From Streptomyces sp. NBC_01237 (GTDB lineage Bacteria > Actinomycetota > Actinomycetes > Streptomycetales > Streptomycetaceae): a stretch of DNA of 64,000 bases. Under the pieces are notes generated by a model. It saw nothing but the letters and a program-made list of their open reading frames with translations. It searched no databases and was not told the origin of the DNA. Within the stretch, counting starts at the first letter, position 1. The number at the start of each line of letters is the position of its first letter. The stretch is from NCBI RefSeq assembly GCF_035917275.1, contig NZ_CP108508.1, positions 5,890,001 through 5,954,000 of the forward strand, read 5' to 3'. Positions 57,582 through 64,000 of the stretch are shown in pieces. The translations under genes and the position numbers were made by a program.

Positions 57582-59135
57582 GTGGGACGACACAGTCGAA
57601 AGGGCCCCGAGGCCAAAAGCCCTCAGGCCCCGGCCGCGCCGGAGTCGGGCGGCGAGCGCGGAGCACCCCGGTCCGCGCCGGGCAACGGGCGACGCCGCAG
57701 GGCCGCTCCCGGACCGCCGGGCGGCGAGGCGAACGCCTCGTCCGGCGAGCGGAGCACTCCGTTCCATGACGGCCCGCAGGTCCGCGGCGGCCATCCCGAA
57801 CAGCGCGAGGCGGGTGGCGGCTGGGGAAGCGGGCCCCAGGGGTACGGGGATGGGCGGTCGCCGGGTCGTCCGGGAGTTCCCGGACCGTCAATGGCGCCGG
57901 GTATACCGGTCGTTCCGGGGCAGTCCGGACAGCCGGGCGGGTACGCCCCGGCTCCCGGGGCCTCGCCCCGCCAGGAAGCCGTGGCGCGTCAGGTCTCGGC
58001 GCAGCAGGCGGCGCAGCGCGCCGCCGACGGGCGCGTGGCGGCGCGGCCCGCACCCGGCGGGGGCCCGTTGATACCGGGCCCGCGCAGAGAGTTCGTCGAC
58101 GCCTTCGACGCCGCACCGCGGTCCGCCGTGCCGCGGTCCACCGCATCACCGTCCACCACGGCGCAGTTCGCCGCGGTGCGGTCCGACGCGGCGCCGGCGA
58201 CGACGCCTCCGTCGTCCGCGTTTCCCGCCGGCCCGCAGGTCCCGGTCGCCGACGGGGACGACGGCACCGTGGGCCCGGCCGGTGACGGCGGCGGGCCGGG
58301 TGCCGAGGACGGCAGGGACGGCGGCCGGGGCGGCAGGGGCCGGACGTTCACCGGTATCGCCGCCGCCGCGGTGACCACCGTGCTCGCGGTGATCGTGGCC
58401 GGACAGGTGGCGCAGGACGCCGAGGGCCGGGACGGCGCGCCGCGGCCCGCGGGCGTGGAACGGGACGGCAGTTCCGACACCTCGCGCTCCGACGCCCGTC
58501 CCGCCCCCGCGAAGGCGCCCGAGGTCAAGCCCCTTTCGTACGCGGAGAAAATGGCCCAGCCCTATCCGCTCGATCCCGAGCTGAAGGCGAGCGGGAAATT
58601 CGACGCCGTTCCGGGCCTGGCGAAGGCGCCGGGCAAGGGGCAGAAGTACCGCTATCGCATCGATGTCGAAAAGGGCCTCGCTCTCGATGCCGGCCTTTTC
58701 GCCGAGGCCGTACAGAAAACGCTGAATGACGACCGGAGTTGGGCGCACGGCGGGGCGATGACATTCGAGCGTATTTCCTCGGGTGAACCGGATTTCGTGA
58801 TCACGCTGGCCAGTCCGGGAACCACCGGTGACTGGTGCCGGAAGTCCGGTCTGGATACGACCATCGACAATGTCTCCTGCGATTCCGCCGCGACCGACCG
58901 GGTCATGATCAACGCCTATCGCTGGGCGCAGGGCTCGTCCACCTACGGCCCGGACAAGTTGTTGATCTACCGCCAGATGCTGATCAACCACGAGGTCGGC
59001 CATCGTCTCGGGCACGACCACGCGAGCTGTGACACACCCGGCGCACTGGCTCCGGTGATGCAGCAGCAGACGAAGTCGCTGAACCTCAAGGGGATCAAGT
59101 GCAAGGCCAACCCGTGGGTGCATCCAGGTAGTTGA
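57582..59135 (+). CDS. DUF3152 zinc metallopeptidase-like membrane protein
   Basis: This 517-residue protein has a long disordered Gly/Pro/Arg-rich N-terminal region (about 1-245) and a single transmembrane helix (about 250-272, FTGIAAAAVTTVLAVIVAGQV). The C-terminal extracytoplasmic DUF3152 domain carries NHEVGHRLGHDH, a metzincin-like HExxHxxGxxH zinc motif. Cysteines around it (DWCRKSG, VSCDS, ASCDT, IKCKA) can form disulfides. GTG 57582 is chosen; ATG 57558 would overlap the previous gene. It corresponds to Rv3207c. Confidence 0.85.
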   Translation: MGRHSRKGPEAKSPQAPAAPESGGERGAPRSAPGNGRRRRAAPGPPGGEANASSGERSTPFHDGPQVRGGHPEQREAGGGWGSGPQGYGDGRSPGRPGVPGPSMAPGIPVVPGQSGQPGGYAPAPGASPRQEAVARQVSAQQAAQRAADGRVAARPAPGGGPLIPGPRREFVDAFDAAPRSAVPRSTASPSTTAQFAAVRSDAAPATTPPSSAFPAGPQVPVADGDDGTVGPAGDGGGPGAEDGRDGGRGGRGRTFTGIAAAAVTTVLAVIVAGQVAQDAEGRDGAPRPAGVERDGSSDTSRSDARPAPAKAPEVKPLSYAEKMAQPYPLDPELKASGKFDAVPGLAKAPGKGQKYRYRIDVEKGLALDAGLFAEAVQKTLNDDRSWAHGGAMTFERISSGEPDFVITLASPGTTGDWCRKSGLDTTIDNVSCDSAATDRVMINAYRWAQGSSTYGPDKLLIYRQMLINHEVGHRLGHDHASCDTPGALAPVMQQQTKSLNLKGIKCKANPWVHPGS

Positions 59136-59176
59136 TCGCCGCAGTCCACATTCCGAGATGGCCGTCTCATTCCGCG

Positions 59177-59205
59177 TTGACATCGCCGAGGCGGTCGTCC
59201 ATATT
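59177..59205 (+). promoter_or_regulatory. Promoter of the leader peptide and peptide transporter
   Basis: A perfect -35 TTGACA (59177-59182), a 17-base spacer and -10-like CATATT (59200-59205) put initiation at 59212-59213, the A of the leader ATG. The message would begin with the start codon. It lies about 40 bases after the DUF3152 stop. Confidence 0.65.
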
Positions 59206-59212
59206 TCTCGGC

Positions 59213-59308
59213 ATGTCACGCATCCCGGTCACCCCCGAGCGCGCCGCCATCGAGCTGGCGCTCATCGGCGTGGCCGGACATTGCGTAGCCGACGTTCTCT
59301 GTCGCTGA
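59213..59308 (+). CDS. 31-residue leaderless leader peptide with terminal cysteines
   Basis: ATG 59213 opens a 31-codon ORF beginning MSRIPVTPERAAIELALIG and ending GHCVADVLCR, with Cys codons at positions 24 and 30, close to the stop at 59306. No ribosome site precedes it, but the promoter fits leaderless translation. Cysteine-containing leaderless short ORFs act as cysteine-responsive attenuators in mycobacteria. The two hairpins downstream make the same role likely for the following transporter operon. Confidence 0.65.
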   Translation: MSRIPVTPERAAIELALIGVAGHCVADVLCR

Positions 59309-59344
59309 CGCCCGCCCGAGCGCGCGTCGGCCCTCCTTCTCCAT

Positions 59345-59374
59345 GAGCCCGTTCAGGGCTCGGTGAGCCCTTTT
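59345..59374 (+). terminator. Attenuator: alternative stems and T-run
   Basis: Three complementary segments occur in series: GAGCCC (59345-59350), AGGGCTC (59355-59361) and GAGCCCT (59365-59371), then TTTT. Segments 2 and 3 form a 7-bp terminator with a 3-base loop. Segments 1 and 2 form a 6-bp alternative that excludes it. The first segment lies 36 bases after the leader stop. Confidence 0.65.
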
Positions 59375-59401
59375 CGGGGTCTCCGTGGGTCACCCATGAC
59401 T

Positions 59402-59439
59402 GCCGCGCCCGGCGTATTCCGTCCGTAGGCGCGGCTTTT
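59402..59439 (+). terminator. Second hairpin with TTTT in the leader
   Basis: Arms GCCGCGCC (59402-59409) and GGCGCGGC (59428-59435), an 18-base loop and TTTT at 59436-59439 form a further terminator-like structure before the binding-protein gene. The rest of 59440-59557 shows only the ribosome site GAGAGG. Confidence 0.55.
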
Positions 59440-59557
59440 CGGTGTTTATCGGCACTTCGGTGCTCCGATGCCTCCTTTCGCTGTCGCCTGCACGGGTCTT
59501 TTCTTCTGCTTTCCATGCATTCCTCCTGTTTGCAGCACTCCGAGAGGTCATCTTCCG

Positions 59558-61282
59558 ATGCGTCAACCGTCCGTCATATCGCGCCGCGTGGCAGCGGCAG
59601 CCGTGGGTCTCGTACTGGCCGCGGGTGCCGCGGCCTGCGGGCCCGAGGACAGCAAGGGCAGCGACGGCAGCTCCGGCGCCGAGGGCAAGCCGCAGAAGGG
59701 CGGCACCCTCACCGTCCTCAACAGCAACCCGCAGGAGGACTTCGACCCCGCGCGGCTCTACACCTCCGGGGGCGGCAACGTCCCCTCCCTCGTCTTCCGT
59801 ACGCTCACCACCCGCAACCGCGAGGACGGCGCGGCGGGCGCGAAGGTCGTCCCCGACCTGGCCACCGACCTGGGCACGCCCAGCAAGGACGCCACCGTCT
59901 GGACGTACACCCTCAAGGACGGCCTGAAGTACGAGGACGGCACCGCGATCACCTCCGCGGACATCAAGTACGGCATCGAGCGCTCCTTCGCCGCCGAACT
60001 CTCCGGCGGCGCCCCGTACCTGCGCGACTGGCTCATCGGCGGGGCCGACTACCAGGGCCTGTACAAGGACAAGAAGGGCCTCGCCTCCATCGAGGTGCCC
60101 GACGCGAAGACGATCGTCTTCCACCTCAACAAGCCCGAGGGCGAATTCCCCTACCTCGCCACGCAGACCCAGACGACCCCGGTGCCCCGGGCCAAGGACA
60201 CCGGCACCAAGTACGAGGAGCACCCCGTCTCCTCGGGGCCGTACAAGGTCGTCACCAACGAGAACGACGGCGAGCGGCTCGTCCTGGAGCGCAACCCGCA
60301 CTGGTCGGCCACCACCGACGAGGAGCGCAAGGCGTACCCGGACCGGATCGACGTACGCTCCGGGCTCGACTCCGCCGTCATCAACCAGCGGCTCTCCGCC
60401 TCCCAGGGCGCCGACGCCGCGGCCGTCACCACCGACACCAACCTCGGGCCGGCCGAACTCGCCAAGGTCACCGGCGACAAGAAGCTCGCCACCCGCGTCG
60501 GCACCGGCCACTTCGGCTACACCAACTACATCGCCTTCAACCCGAAGGTGAAGCCGTTCGACGACCCGAAGGTGCGCCAGGCGATCTCGTACGCCGTGGA
60601 CCGCTCCTCCGTGATCAACGCCGCCGGCGGCTCCTCGCTCGCCGAGGCCGCCACCACCTATCTGCCGAACCAGAAGTCCTTCGGCTACACGCCCTACGAC
60701 CACTTCCCGGCCGGGAAGACGGGCAACGCCGAGGAGGCCAGGAAGCTGCTGAAGGAGGCCGGGTACGCCAAGGGCCTGACCGTCACCCTGACCCACTCCA
60801 ACGACAAGGACTTCGAGACCAGCCCGGAGATCGCCACCGCCCTCCAGGCCGCGCTCAAGAAGGCCGGGATCACGGTCAAGCTCCAGGGTCTGGAGAGCAA
60901 CGACTACTCCGACACCACCCACAGCGCCGCCAAGGAGCCCGGCTTCTTCCTCGCCCACTGGGGTGCCGACTGGCCCTCCGGCGGCCCGTTCCTCGCCCCG
61001 ATCTTCGACGGCCGGCAGATCGTCAAGGACGGCGCCAACTTCAACTCCGGCTTCCTGAACGACCCGGCGGTCAACAAGGAGATCGACGAGATCAACAAGC
61101 TCACCGATCTGAGCGCCGCGGCCACCCGCTGGGGCGCGCTCGACAAGAAGATCGGTGAGCAGGCACTGACCGTGCCGCTCTTCCACCCGGTCTACAAGCG
61201 GCTCGTCGGCCAGGACATCAAGAACGTCGTCATCAGCGACTGGACCGGCGTCCTCGACATCTCCCAGGTCTCGGTCAAGTAA
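59558..61282 (+). CDS. Oligopeptide ABC transporter substrate-binding lipoprotein
   Basis: This 574-residue SBP_bac_5 family protein has a signal peptide with a lipoprotein-type cysteine (GLVLAAGAAAC, Cys near residue 28). The core includes KKGGTLTVLN-like starts, DFDPARLYTSGG, KDGLKYEDGTAITSADIKYGIERS and VRQAISYAVDRSSV. It delivers peptides, or possibly nickel or glycosides, to the permeases. ATG 59558 has GAGAGG 10 bases upstream. It heads an operon with two permeases and an ATPase, behind the leader-peptide attenuator. Confidence 0.93.
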   Translation: MRQPSVISRRVAAAAVGLVLAAGAAACGPEDSKGSDGSSGAEGKPQKGGTLTVLNSNPQEDFDPARLYTSGGGNVPSLVFRTLTTRNREDGAAGAKVVPDLATDLGTPSKDATVWTYTLKDGLKYEDGTAITSADIKYGIERSFAAELSGGAPYLRDWLIGGADYQGLYKDKKGLASIEVPDAKTIVFHLNKPEGEFPYLATQTQTTPVPRAKDTGTKYEEHPVSSGPYKVVTNENDGERLVLERNPHWSATTDEERKAYPDRIDVRSGLDSAVINQRLSASQGADAAAVTTDTNLGPAELAKVTGDKKLATRVGTGHFGYTNYIAFNPKVKPFDDPKVRQAISYAVDRSSVINAAGGSSLAEAATTYLPNQKSFGYTPYDHFPAGKTGNAEEARKLLKEAGYAKGLTVTLTHSNDKDFETSPEIATALQAALKKAGITVKLQGLESNDYSDTTHSAAKEPGFFLAHWGADWPSGGPFLAPIFDGRQIVKDGANFNSGFLNDPAVNKEIDEINKLTDLSAAATRWGALDKKIGEQALTVPLFHPVYKRLVGQDIKNVVISDWTGVLDISQVSVK

Positions 61283-61284
61283 TC

Positions 61285-62316
61285 ATGTCGGAAGCACTTC
61301 TGGTCCAGGAGGCGGGAGCGGCGAACACCGCCGCCCCCGCCTCGGGGGCCCGGCTGTTCTGGCGGCGGCTGCGCGCCCAGCGCGCGGCCACCGCCGCGGC
61401 GGCCGTGGTCCTCCTGCTCGTCCTGGTCGCACTCGCCGCGCCGCTGCTCAGCGCACTGGCGGGCCAGGACCCCAACACGTACCACCCCGACCTCGTCGAC
61501 TCGGCGGCCGGCGGTGTGCCCATCGGCTCTTTCGGCGGCATCAGCGCGGATCACTGGCTCGGTGTCGAACCGCAGACCGGCCGCGACCTGTTCGCCCGTA
61601 TCGTCCACGGCGCCCGGGTCTCGCTCGGCGTCGCCGTCGTCGCCACGGTCCTCCAGATCGCGATCGGGCTGGCCATCGGTCTCGCCGCCGCCCTCGGCAG
61701 CCGCTGGGTCGACCAGATCCTCAGCCGCATCACCGACATCAACGTCGCCCTGCCGATCATGGTCATCGCCCTGGCGCTCCTGGCGATCGTCCCGGACACC
61801 TTCCCCCGGCCCGTGCTGATCGCCCTGGTCATCGGCGGGATCAACTGGGCCGGTACGTCGAAGATCGTGCGGGCCCAGGCCCTCACCCTGAAATCCCTCG
61901 ACTTCGTCTCGGCGGCCCGGCTCAGCGGCCGCGGCAAGTGGAGCATCGCCCGGCGCGAACTCCTGCCCGCGCTCGCCGCACCCGTCATCACCTACGCCGC
62001 GCTGATGTTCCCCACCAACATCGTCGTCGAGGCGGCCCTGTCCTTCCTCGGCGTCGGCATCAAACCGCCCACCCCGTCCTGGGGACAGATGCTCACCGAG
62101 GCCGACACCTGGTACCAGGCGGCCCCCACCTATCTGCTGCTCCCCGCCGGACTGCTCTTCGTCACCGTGCTCGCCCTGACCGTCCTCGGCGAGGGCATCC
62201 GCACGGCACTCGACCCGCGCGCCGCGTCCCGGCTGCGGATCGGCACCGGACGCAAGGAAGCCAAGGACTCCGGTGCGGACACGGCGGCCAAGAAGTCCGA
62301 GGAGGACCGGGCATGA
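61285..62316 (+). CDS. Peptide ABC transporter permease (DppC/OppC type)
   Basis: This 343-residue membrane protein has an N-terminal helix (about residues 35-55) then five helices. The EAA-type coupling loop is FVSAARLSGRGKWSIARRELLPALAAPV. The large extracytoplasmic loop after helix 1 and the DHWLGVEPQTGRDLFARIVHGAR segment are typical of OppC. It begins two bases after the binding-protein stop and overlaps the next permease (ATGA). The order C before B differs from the usual B-C. Confidence 0.92.
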   Translation: MSEALLVQEAGAANTAAPASGARLFWRRLRAQRAATAAAAVVLLLVLVALAAPLLSALAGQDPNTYHPDLVDSAAGGVPIGSFGGISADHWLGVEPQTGRDLFARIVHGARVSLGVAVVATVLQIAIGLAIGLAAALGSRWVDQILSRITDINVALPIMVIALALLAIVPDTFPRPVLIALVIGGINWAGTSKIVRAQALTLKSLDFVSAARLSGRGKWSIARRELLPALAAPVITYAALMFPTNIVVEAALSFLGVGIKPPTPSWGQMLTEADTWYQAAPTYLLLPAGLLFVTVLALTVLGEGIRTALDPRAASRLRIGTGRKEAKDSGADTAAKKSEEDRA

Positions 62317-63302
62317 CCGGGTTTCTGCTGCGACGGCTCGGGGGAGCCGTCTTCGTCCTTCTCGCGCTGACCGTGATCCTGTACGCGATCTTCTACGTCG
62401 CCCCCGGCGACGTCGCCCAGATCGCCTGCGGCCCGCGCTGCTCACCCGCCCAGGTCGCCCAGGTCACCCAGCAGCTACGGCTGGACGACCCGGTGTACGT
62501 GCAGTACTGGCACTTCCTCCAGGGCATCGTCGCCGGACGCGACTTCTCCACCGGCACCGGGGTCGAGCACTGCTCCGCCCCCTGCCTCGGGGTCTCGTAC
62601 CAGAGCGACCAGCAGGTCACCCGGCTGATCCTGGCCAAGCTGCCGGTCACCGCCTCGCTCGTGATCGGCGCCTTCGTGGGCTGGGTCCTGCTCGGCGTCG
62701 GCACGGGAGTGCTGTCCGCCTGGCGGCGGGGCCGGATCACCGAGCGGGTGCTGACCTGGCTGACCCTGGCCGGAACCGCCACGCCCGTCTTCGTCATCGG
62801 GCTGCTGCTCATCATCGTCTTCTGCTCCACACTCCAGTGGCTGCCGTCCCCGACGTACGTACCGTTCACGGAGAATCCCGAGCAGTGGGCCTGGGGGCTG
62901 CTCCTGCCCTGGGTGTCGCTGGCCCTCATCGAGTCCGCCAAATACGCCCGGCTGACCAGGAGTTCCATGCTGGAGACGCTCGCCGAGGACCATGTGCGCA
63001 CCTTTCGCGCGTACGGCGTCAGCGAGCGCGCCATCATCGGGCGGCACGCCCTGCGCGGTGCCGTCGCACCCGTGATCGCGCTCAGCGCGCTGGACTTCGG
63101 CTCGATGTTCGGCGGCGCGGTCCTGACCGAATCACTCTTCGGCATCCCCGGCATCGGCCGCGAACTGGTGCACGCCGTCAAGGTCGTGGACCTGCCCGTC
63201 GTCGTCGGCATGGTGCTGGTGACCGGTTTCTTCGTGGTGCTCGCCAATACCGTGGCGGACGTCCTGTACGCGCTGGCCGACCGACGGGTGGTCCTGTCAT
63301 GA
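62313..63302 (+). CDS. Peptide ABC transporter permease (DppB/OppB type)
   Basis: This 329-residue membrane protein has six helices and the OppB start FLLRRLGGAVFVLLALTVILYAIFYVAPGD. The EAA loop is HVRTFRAYGVSERAIIGRHALRGAVAPV. The first extracytoplasmic loop carries four cysteines (IACGPRCSPAQ and EHCSAPCLG), not usual for OppB. The ATG overlaps the preceding stop, and the ATPase start overlaps its own stop. Confidence 0.92.
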   Translation: MTGFLLRRLGGAVFVLLALTVILYAIFYVAPGDVAQIACGPRCSPAQVAQVTQQLRLDDPVYVQYWHFLQGIVAGRDFSTGTGVEHCSAPCLGVSYQSDQQVTRLILAKLPVTASLVIGAFVGWVLLGVGTGVLSAWRRGRITERVLTWLTLAGTATPVFVIGLLLIIVFCSTLQWLPSPTYVPFTENPEQWAWGLLLPWVSLALIESAKYARLTRSSMLETLAEDHVRTFRAYGVSERAIIGRHALRGAVAPVIALSALDFGSMFGGAVLTESLFGIPGIGRELVHAVKVVDLPVVVGMVLVTGFFVVLANTVADVLYALADRRVVLS

Positions 63303-64000
63303 CAACTCCCTCCCCGTTGGTCGAGGTCAAGGACCTCACCATCGACTTCGGCACCGTCCGGGCCGTGGACGGGCTCTCGTTCACCCTGGAGGCGGGCGGC
63401 GCGCTCGGCGTCGTCGGTGAATCCGGCTCCGGCAAGAGCGCGTCCGCGTACGCCCTGCTCGGACTGCACCGCGGTACGGGCGCCCGGGTCGGCGGTTCGG
63501 TCCAAGTCGCCGGTACGGACGTGGGCGCCGCGGACGACGCCGCGCTGCGGGCGCTGCGGGGCGCGAAGGCCGCCATGGTCTTCCAGGACCCGCTGTCCTC
63601 GCTCGACCCGTACTACACGGTCGGCGACCAGATCGCCGAGGTGTACCGGGTGCACAACTCCGTGTCCCGGCGGGCCGCACGCGCCCGTGCCGTCGAGGTG
63701 CTGGACCGGGTCGGCATCCCGGACGCGGCGCGTCGGGCCGGTTCCCGGCCGCACGAGTTCTCCGGCGGCATGCGGCAGCGGGCGCTCATCGCGATGGCCC
63801 TGGCCTGTGAACCGCGGCTGCTGATCGCCGACGAGCCGACCACCGCGCTGGACGTCACGGTGCAGGCCCAGATCCTGGATCTGCTGCACGGGCTGCGGCG
63901 TGAGAGCGGCATGGGGCTGCTGCTGGTCACCCATGACGTGGGGGTGGCGGCGGAGAGCGTGGACGAGGTGCTCGTCATGCGGGCGGGCCGCGAGGTCGAA
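63299..64000 (+). CDS. Peptide ABC transporter ATP-binding protein (OppD type, 3' truncated)
   Basis: The 234 visible codons show Walker A GESGSGKS, Q-loop MVFQDPLSSLDP, signature EFSGGMRQRALIA, Walker B LLIADEPTTALD and switch His LLLVTHDVG. The frame is open at the right edge; the C-terminal OppD oligopeptide domain (with its Fe-S or peptide-contact region) is not in the window. ATG 63299 overlaps the permease stop. A second ATPase (OppF) probably follows. Confidence 0.93.
   Translation, partial: MTTPSPLVEVKDLTIDFGTVRAVDGLSFTLEAGGALGVVGESGSGKSASAYALLGLHRGTGARVGGSVQVAGTDVGAADDAALRALRGAKAAMVFQDPLSSLDPYYTVGDQIAEVYRVHNSVSRRAARARAVEVLDRVGIPDAARRAGSRPHEFSGGMRQRALIAMALACEPRLLIADEPTTALDVTVQAQILDLLHGLRRESGMGLLLVTHDVGVAAESVDEVLVMRAGREVE

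Follow-up and report, generated by a model that had tools for sequence, protein, structure and literature searches.

A leader peptide of the Ms4533A family as a probable cysteine-responsive attenuator upstream of an Opp/Dpp-type ABC transporter operon in Streptomyces

The genome of Streptomyces sp. NBC_01237 carries a short open reading frame with two cysteine codons, 249 bases ahead of the first gene of an Opp/Dpp-type ABC transporter operon. This locus raises the question of whether cysteine supply could govern a transporter of the peptide type, and by what kind of switch. Of the many Opp/Dpp-type transporters found in Streptomyces, only a minority have, to our knowledge, an established substrate. 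The stretch of DNA that we analysed, called the window below, comprises 64,000 nucleotides (NZ_CP108508.1, positions 5,890,001 to 5,954,000 of the forward strand), and all coordinates are positions within it. The elements at the upstream end of the locus are the following.

59177..59205, + strand: promoter TTGACA-17-CATATT, which would start transcription at the ATG (leaderless); the single promoter-like site there
59213..59308, + strand: leader peptide ORF MSRIPVTPERAAIELALIGVAGHCVADVLCR, 31 codons, a Cys-rich leader of the Ms4533A family under in-frame selection
59282..59284, + strand: codon 24, TGC, the first of the two for Cys; some relatives have Ser, Ala or Val in its place
59300..59302, + strand: codon 30, TGT, the second of the two for Cys and the putative site of stalling

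The promoter proposed in an earlier note on this DNA was found at the expected spacing upstream of the ATG at 59213: TTGACA (59177-59182) and CATATT (59200-59205) are separated by a 17-base spacer, and 7 bases follow before the start codon. It agrees with the consensus at 10 of 12 positions, with one match in the sequence against a mean of 0.0 (sd 0.2) in 50 shuffles. Read from this spacing, which is conserved in relatives, the mRNA would start at the leader ATG. The 31-codon ORF at 59213-59308 was likewise recovered, but the statement that it ends with two cysteine codons did not hold, as the Cys codons are 24 and 30, six codons apart, and the last sense codon is CGC (Arg). The peptide matched NCBIfam model NF042937.1, "Ms4533A family Cys-rich leader peptide", over its whole length with 43.9 bits (cut-off 31), and was the sole NF042937 match above cut-off in its own genome. 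By this profile match the leader type is an already known and curated family; the filing rests on the profile, since a sulfate-operon context is not stated as defining in the model line. Genes behind the same promoter type were found at six places in the same genome, none of them a short Cys leader. Two other promoters of this genome (L238 and L240) carry palindromes that are almost the same, GTCAACGTACGTTGACA and GTCAACCTACGGTTGACA, and that directly precede the start codon; the products of the genes behind them look HTH-like by eye, and the palindromes are perhaps a shared operator.

The operon behind the leader consists of the following elements.

59542..59547, + strand: probable Shine-Dalgarno sequence GAGAGG of the substrate-binding protein (SBP) gene; GAGAGG was picked in 81/99 regions
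59558..61282, + strand: SBP_bac_5 lipoprotein, first gene of the operon (PF00496, E 4.1e-77; lipoprotein signal by eye)
61285..62316, + strand: permease of the OppC/DppC type (family models)
62313..63302, + strand: permease of the OppB/DppB type (family models)
63299..64000, + strand: ATP-binding protein of the OppD/DppD type, running off the window; a second ATPase is next in the genome (L066)

Upstream of the leader, a DUF3152 gene ends at 59135; by eye, its protein (window 57600-58500) has a long Gly/Pro/Ala-rich low-complexity N-terminal part followed by a likely transmembrane segment. The cargo of the SBP was sought with NCBIfam models, the best of which were GsiB (91.9 bits) and OppA (90.1 bits), far under their cut-offs; since all SBP family models scored below cut-off, neither glutathione nor any other cargo was assigned. 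Among solved structures, the nearest in sequence is 2wok, the OppA2 protein from the clavulanic acid cluster. Identity of the operon with SCO5476-SCO5480 of S. coelicolor was considered; it is unsupported by anything in the analysis and is not claimed, and a literature search for SCO5477 found no paper. In three loci (L243, L244 and L246) a gene for MoeZ (adenylyltransferase/sulfurtransferase) follows the transporter at a distance of a few genes, some 5-6 kb beyond the second ATPase and behind glycosyltransferase and NAD-epimerase genes; the identification is from NF005902, over cut-off in L244, and from the same N-terminal sequence in L243 and L246. The nearness of this sulfur-transfer gene to a transporter putatively controlled by cysteine may or may not be a coincidence.

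We asked how firmly leader and transporter are tied to each other. A profile of 20 rows found the leader in 94/198 genomes of the genus, and an SBP ortholog (E 1e-150 or better) was found in 93/198 of the same genomes. The two lists agree except for one genome (G079, 78% completeness) with a leader and no SBP match at E 1e-150; its SBP match (L117) starts at residue 155. In most genomes just a portion of the first-look candidates was scored in the leader searches (20 per genome class-wide, 41 per genome in the genus), and absences could be misses; the absences in the genus agree with the SBP search. Within the family, the leader was present in 64/150 genomes and 12/17 genera, one of these genera through a weak match alone, and the SBP stood behind it in 6/6 fetched loci from four other genera. 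Among named records (the best 80 of 397 relatives; Streptomyces by title, one titled [Kitasatospora] papulosa), the leader occurred at 80/80 SBP loci, with CATATT at the exact spacing in 67/80 and TTGACA in 72/80. Each of the 13 loci of the genus that were extracted with some 7 kb of sequence shows the order DUF3152, leader, SBP, two permeases, two ATPases. The linkage of a putatively leaderless, cysteine-type leader to an Opp/Dpp-type operon, as the earlier note had read it, is conserved in the genus and its family. All six genomes without the leader that we examined also lacked the SBP and the permeases, and in all six the DUF3152 gene lies close to a glycosyltransferase gene that otherwise comes after the operon. 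Between these two genes (first 800 bases) L253 keeps an ATPase match by blast, and L257 and L258 hold ATPase-like pieces by eye; these remnants point to operon loss rather than late gain, and leader and operon would have been lost as one unit.

Some genomes occur twice among the loci, and distinct sequences were counted. Two of 119 loci (L099 and L100) fail the leader motif through a displaced stop codon: sense codons replace the stop after CysArg and extend the peptide to ...CRQGQRHLTSA, with TGT kept. L117 was set aside wherever a count depends on the position of the SBP start. The pN/pS comparison excludes L094 and L117, and the stop-codon hairpin counts exclude L094 and L038.

The last Cys codon was TGT in 93/94 distinct sequences in strict register, the odd one (L094) having TGT one codon earlier, and in 80/80 of the named loci; in 43 crude ORFs of the window, TGT accounts for 17/119 Cys codons. 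The first Cys position is more variable, with Cys in 66/94 distinct sequences (TGC 62, TGT 4) and another residue in 28/94, so one Cys codon can suffice. The comparison of Cys codons and stems among relatives that the earlier note had called for came out in two ways: the last Cys codon is conserved, but the alternative stems that it had drawn, described below, are not.

Selection on the peptide reaches beyond this codon. With identical segments counted once and kinship uncorrected, pN/pS was 0.52 for the whole tail of the leader (81 distinct sequences), 0.35 for the ELALIG block and 0.28 for the VADI block, against 1.15 between the conserved blocks and 1.23 in the head (85 sequences). When the tail was read in the other frames, the ratios were 1.04 in frame +1, with only 7 distinct stop-free sequences, and 1.46 in the remaining frame (55 sequences). 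As far as pN/pS can tell, these values indicate translation of the leader ORF and a role for the peptide that extends beyond its Cys. Eight positions (L15, L17, G19, V20, V25, A26, D27 and C30) were invariant in 20 chosen divergent leaders, some of them also common to the leaders of sulfate transporters considered below. ELALIG and VADI seem to be under selection at the peptide level, to a degree that the sensing of a hungry codon would not call for. This raises the possibility that the leader peptide ELALIGVxxxxVADIxC arrests the ribosome as a nascent chain together with low cysteine, which would be compatible with attenuation of either transcription or translation. The invariant residues and the low ratios in the two blocks speak for such an arrest; part of the conservation may, however, reflect RNA structure or shared ancestry, and the frame +1 control is small. 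We regard an arrest of this kind as unlikely.

Three structures can be drawn in the RNA between the leader and the SBP gene.

59304..59331, + strand: hairpin P1 over the stop codon, GCTGACGC (59304-59311) with GCGTCGGC (59324-59331)
59345..59374, + strand: GAGCCC/GGGCTC/GAGCCC-TTTT triple, present but species-specific
59402..59439, + strand: hairpin P2 (GCCGCGCC...GGCGCGGC) with TTTT, a possible intrinsic terminator

The attenuator of the earlier note was built on the triple, whose middle segment could pair with either neighbour. It is present in the window (GAGCCC 59345-59350, GGGCTC 59356-59361, GAGCCC 59365-59370, then TTTT). When the region was shuffled 5000 times, 0.14% of the shuffles produced a triple of 6-base segments with a T-rich tail of this kind. 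The stems are not conserved, however, as the triple with its T-run was found in 2/99 distinct regions, both from the species of the window; in L003, the next relative, the triple is present but the T-run is missing. The second hairpin with TTTT fared better: P2 (59402-59435, -21.8 kcal/mol) is followed by TTTT at 59436-59439 and is recurrent in the clade of the window. A P2-type hairpin was found in 29/99 regions, with T making up 47% of the next 8 bases against a background of 21%. More generally, with the threshold set at -8 kcal/mol and no fewer than 3 T required among the 5 bases that follow, a T-tailed hairpin was present in 126/159 distinct regions against 133/297 shuffles (made from 99 of the 159 regions), and under a stricter terminator rule (-12 kcal/mol or better) in 28/99 regions against 12% of shuffles. 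A stock terminator scan, whose own rule asks for five or more T among 8 bases, found none in 59100-59600, and no Rfam family reached its gathering score in the window.

P1 is recurrent as well, a helix of at least 6 pairs through the stop codon being found in 72/99 distinct regions against 20% of shuffles and lacking in 27/99. Its arms vary with pairing retained (GACGC/GCGTC, GACAC/GTGTC, GACGGGC/GCCCGTC, GACCC/GGGTC). No structure emerged when an RNA consensus was computed for the mixed alignment of P1, which was for that reason tested helix by helix. In one clade the TGT of the last Cys is paired in P1, and in the clade of the window P1 begins after it, so P1 pairing alone does not explain the fixed TGT. 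On sequence comparison, the recurrent elements of the locus are the stop-codon hairpin, the near-fixed TGT for the last Cys and the T-tailed hairpins.

A leader ORF with regulatory codons, a hairpin over the ORF end and a T-tailed hairpin downstream are the parts of attenuators of the trp and his type, and the same parts are found here; the differences are that the antiterminator pairing is only putative here, that the stem strengths are lopsided and that the start would be leaderless. We consider it probable that the element is a cysteine-responsive transcription attenuator of the Ms4533A family that controls the SBP_bac_5/Opp-type ABC transporter. This reading builds on membership of the family, a conserved promoter of the leaderless type, selection on the coding sequence, a UGU codon that hardly varies, the recurrent P1, the enrichment of T-tailed hairpins and the tight linkage to the transporter. 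The mRNA would begin at the ATG, ribosomes would load at its 5' end, and the 31-codon leader would be translated while RNA polymerase moves on. With ample Cys-tRNA, the ribosome would complete the leader and depart, P1 would form around the stop codon, and the T-tailed P2 would end transcription ahead of the SBP gene. Under cysteine shortage, the ribosome would halt at UGU, two codons before the stop, and cover the 5' arm of P1; the 3' arm would then be free to compete with P2, and the transporter would be made.

Ribosome-mediated attenuation of the operon in this form would require a competing pairing between the 3' arm of P1 and the 5' arm of P2. In the clade of the window, this pairing beats shuffles (mean z -1.7, 23/28 regions below -1). 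When matched partners were compared with swapped ones, the outcome depended on the choice of segments: one choice gave p 0.006, and the other gave p 0.25, 0.46 and 0.97 for three hairpin groups (38, 52 and 35 regions), and covariation is not taken as support. The competing helix is far weaker than P2, so that only a kinetic switch would work. Further points against this reading are the 27 regions lacking a P1 helix of that length, the many relatives left with a single Cys codon, and the outcomes of the stock terminator scan and of the stricter terminator rule. These mixed results lend something to the view that regulation is by Rho or ordinary polarity, the leader being translated only to shield the mRNA, with no dedicated alternative stems. 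Rho was suggested for the mycobacterial cys leaders because no terminator had been found there (Seliverstov 2005, PMC1262725, in the part of that article available to us). The recurrent stop-codon hairpin and the enrichment of T-tailed hairpins speak against a role for Rho or polarity here, and we hold it to be quite improbable.

A further way in which a stalled ribosome could act is on translation, by refolding the leader RNA and freeing the Shine-Dalgarno sequence of the SBP gene. Mycobacteria offer a precedent, as a polycysteine leader of M. smegmatis reportedly works by translational attenuation that frees a Shine-Dalgarno sequence. The leader and the SBP gene lie 135-316 bases apart over 101 loci, a few SBP starts among the relatives being off where the match began inside the protein, and some relatives (L044 and L046) have by eye exact complements of the Shine-Dalgarno region, GACGACCT against AGGTCGTC. 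In the window, the cost of opening the Shine-Dalgarno region fell by 2.2 kcal/mol, from 10.2 to 8.0, when the footprint of the stalled ribosome was masked. Over 99 regions, however, masking changed this cost by -0.06 kcal/mol on average, no differently from the shuffled controls, and a fall of more than 2 kcal/mol occurred in 4.0% of regions against 1.5% of controls; 8/99 rows used a stretch that was not SD-like, which blurs the test a little. Translational attenuation thus appears rather unlikely, and transcription attenuation through P1 and P2 is the reading that we prefer.

If a cysteine attenuator controls this operon, what might the transporter bring in? A class-wide search for the leader gave matches in 40/394 genomes, of which 18 belong to the genus, 21 to a family (f4) that would be mycobacterium-like and one to another family (f18). 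The last was rejected as a chance match: it scored 29.9 bits, below cut-off, in a long open frame, and its stretch held no matches to the operon proteins. In f4, a SubI-type sulfate-binding protein stood directly behind the leader in 15/15 loci examined (of the 21 matches), and NCBIfam models named SubI and CysT in L081 and SubI, CysW and CysA in L083. The f4 leaders resemble that of the window in that the start codon follows a -10-like site at a short, fixed distance (by eye), that Cys stands near the C-terminus and that a stop-codon hairpin, of at least 8 pairs, is present in 8/14 distinct regions (13% of shuffles). They differ in having two or more adjacent Cys in 12/15 leaders, against 17/94 leaders of the genus, and in their operons: the f4 leaders precede a sulfate ABC transporter, whereas the operon of the window is of the SBP_bac_5/Opp type, like those of the genus and family loci examined. 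SubI (TIGR00971) gave no match at E 1e-20 in 81 genomes of the genus; 3/14 control genomes were positive. That Streptomyces bears this leader on a transporter of the peptide type, and that no SubI was found there, is the strongest hint that the transporter has a role in sulfur supply.

Short ORFs with Cys codons near the stop were proposed before mycobacterial cys operons (Seliverstov 2005, PMC1262725), and the leader described here is of the same make, theirs standing upstream of sulfur genes. The available part of that article names Mycobacterium, Propionibacterium and Bifidobacterium, not Streptomyces, as bearers of Cys leaders, and reports no conserved terminator hairpin. For the attenuation mechanism in M. 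smegmatis, Canestrari 2020 is cited in the accessible passages of PMC9031893 and is also mentioned in those of PMC13236596. The polycysteine short-ORF attenuators of that species (Canestrari 2020) are reportedly leaderless, as the leader described here would be, with Cys codons just before the stop and a place at the operon head, as here; in contrast, the leader of the window has no polycysteine run and precedes an Opp-type operon, and the masking of its Shine-Dalgarno sequence found no support on average. A reannotation of S. lividans (PMC8079986) lists, in the part available to us, eight leader peptides, none of which is the leader of the window; several of them start leaderless, as this one would. 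In the literature searched (titles, abstract starts and passages, including Shell 2015, PMC4633059, and PMC9094748, PMC11133741, PMC13011467 and PMC4398421), we found no paper on such a leader before an Opp-type operon.

Judged from these comparisons, cysteine probably controls an ABC transporter of the peptide type. A leader that travels with an Opp-type transporter predicts the trigger of the transporter, low cysteine, and suggests its cargo: the transporter may import a source of sulfur or cysteine such as Cys-containing peptides. Since the same leader family elsewhere precedes sulfate transporters, this is a testable clue to the purpose of the transporter. More tentatively, and with low confidence, the single UGU and the nascent peptide ELALIGVxxxxVADIxC could together form a cysteine-gated arrest that in Streptomyces, where no SubI was found, is coupled to a peptide-type transporter that would have taken over a role in sulfur uptake, for example the import of cysteine-containing peptides. 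The leader would in any case offer a clean case in which to ask whether a cysteine attenuator reads the hungry codon only, or also its own nascent peptide.
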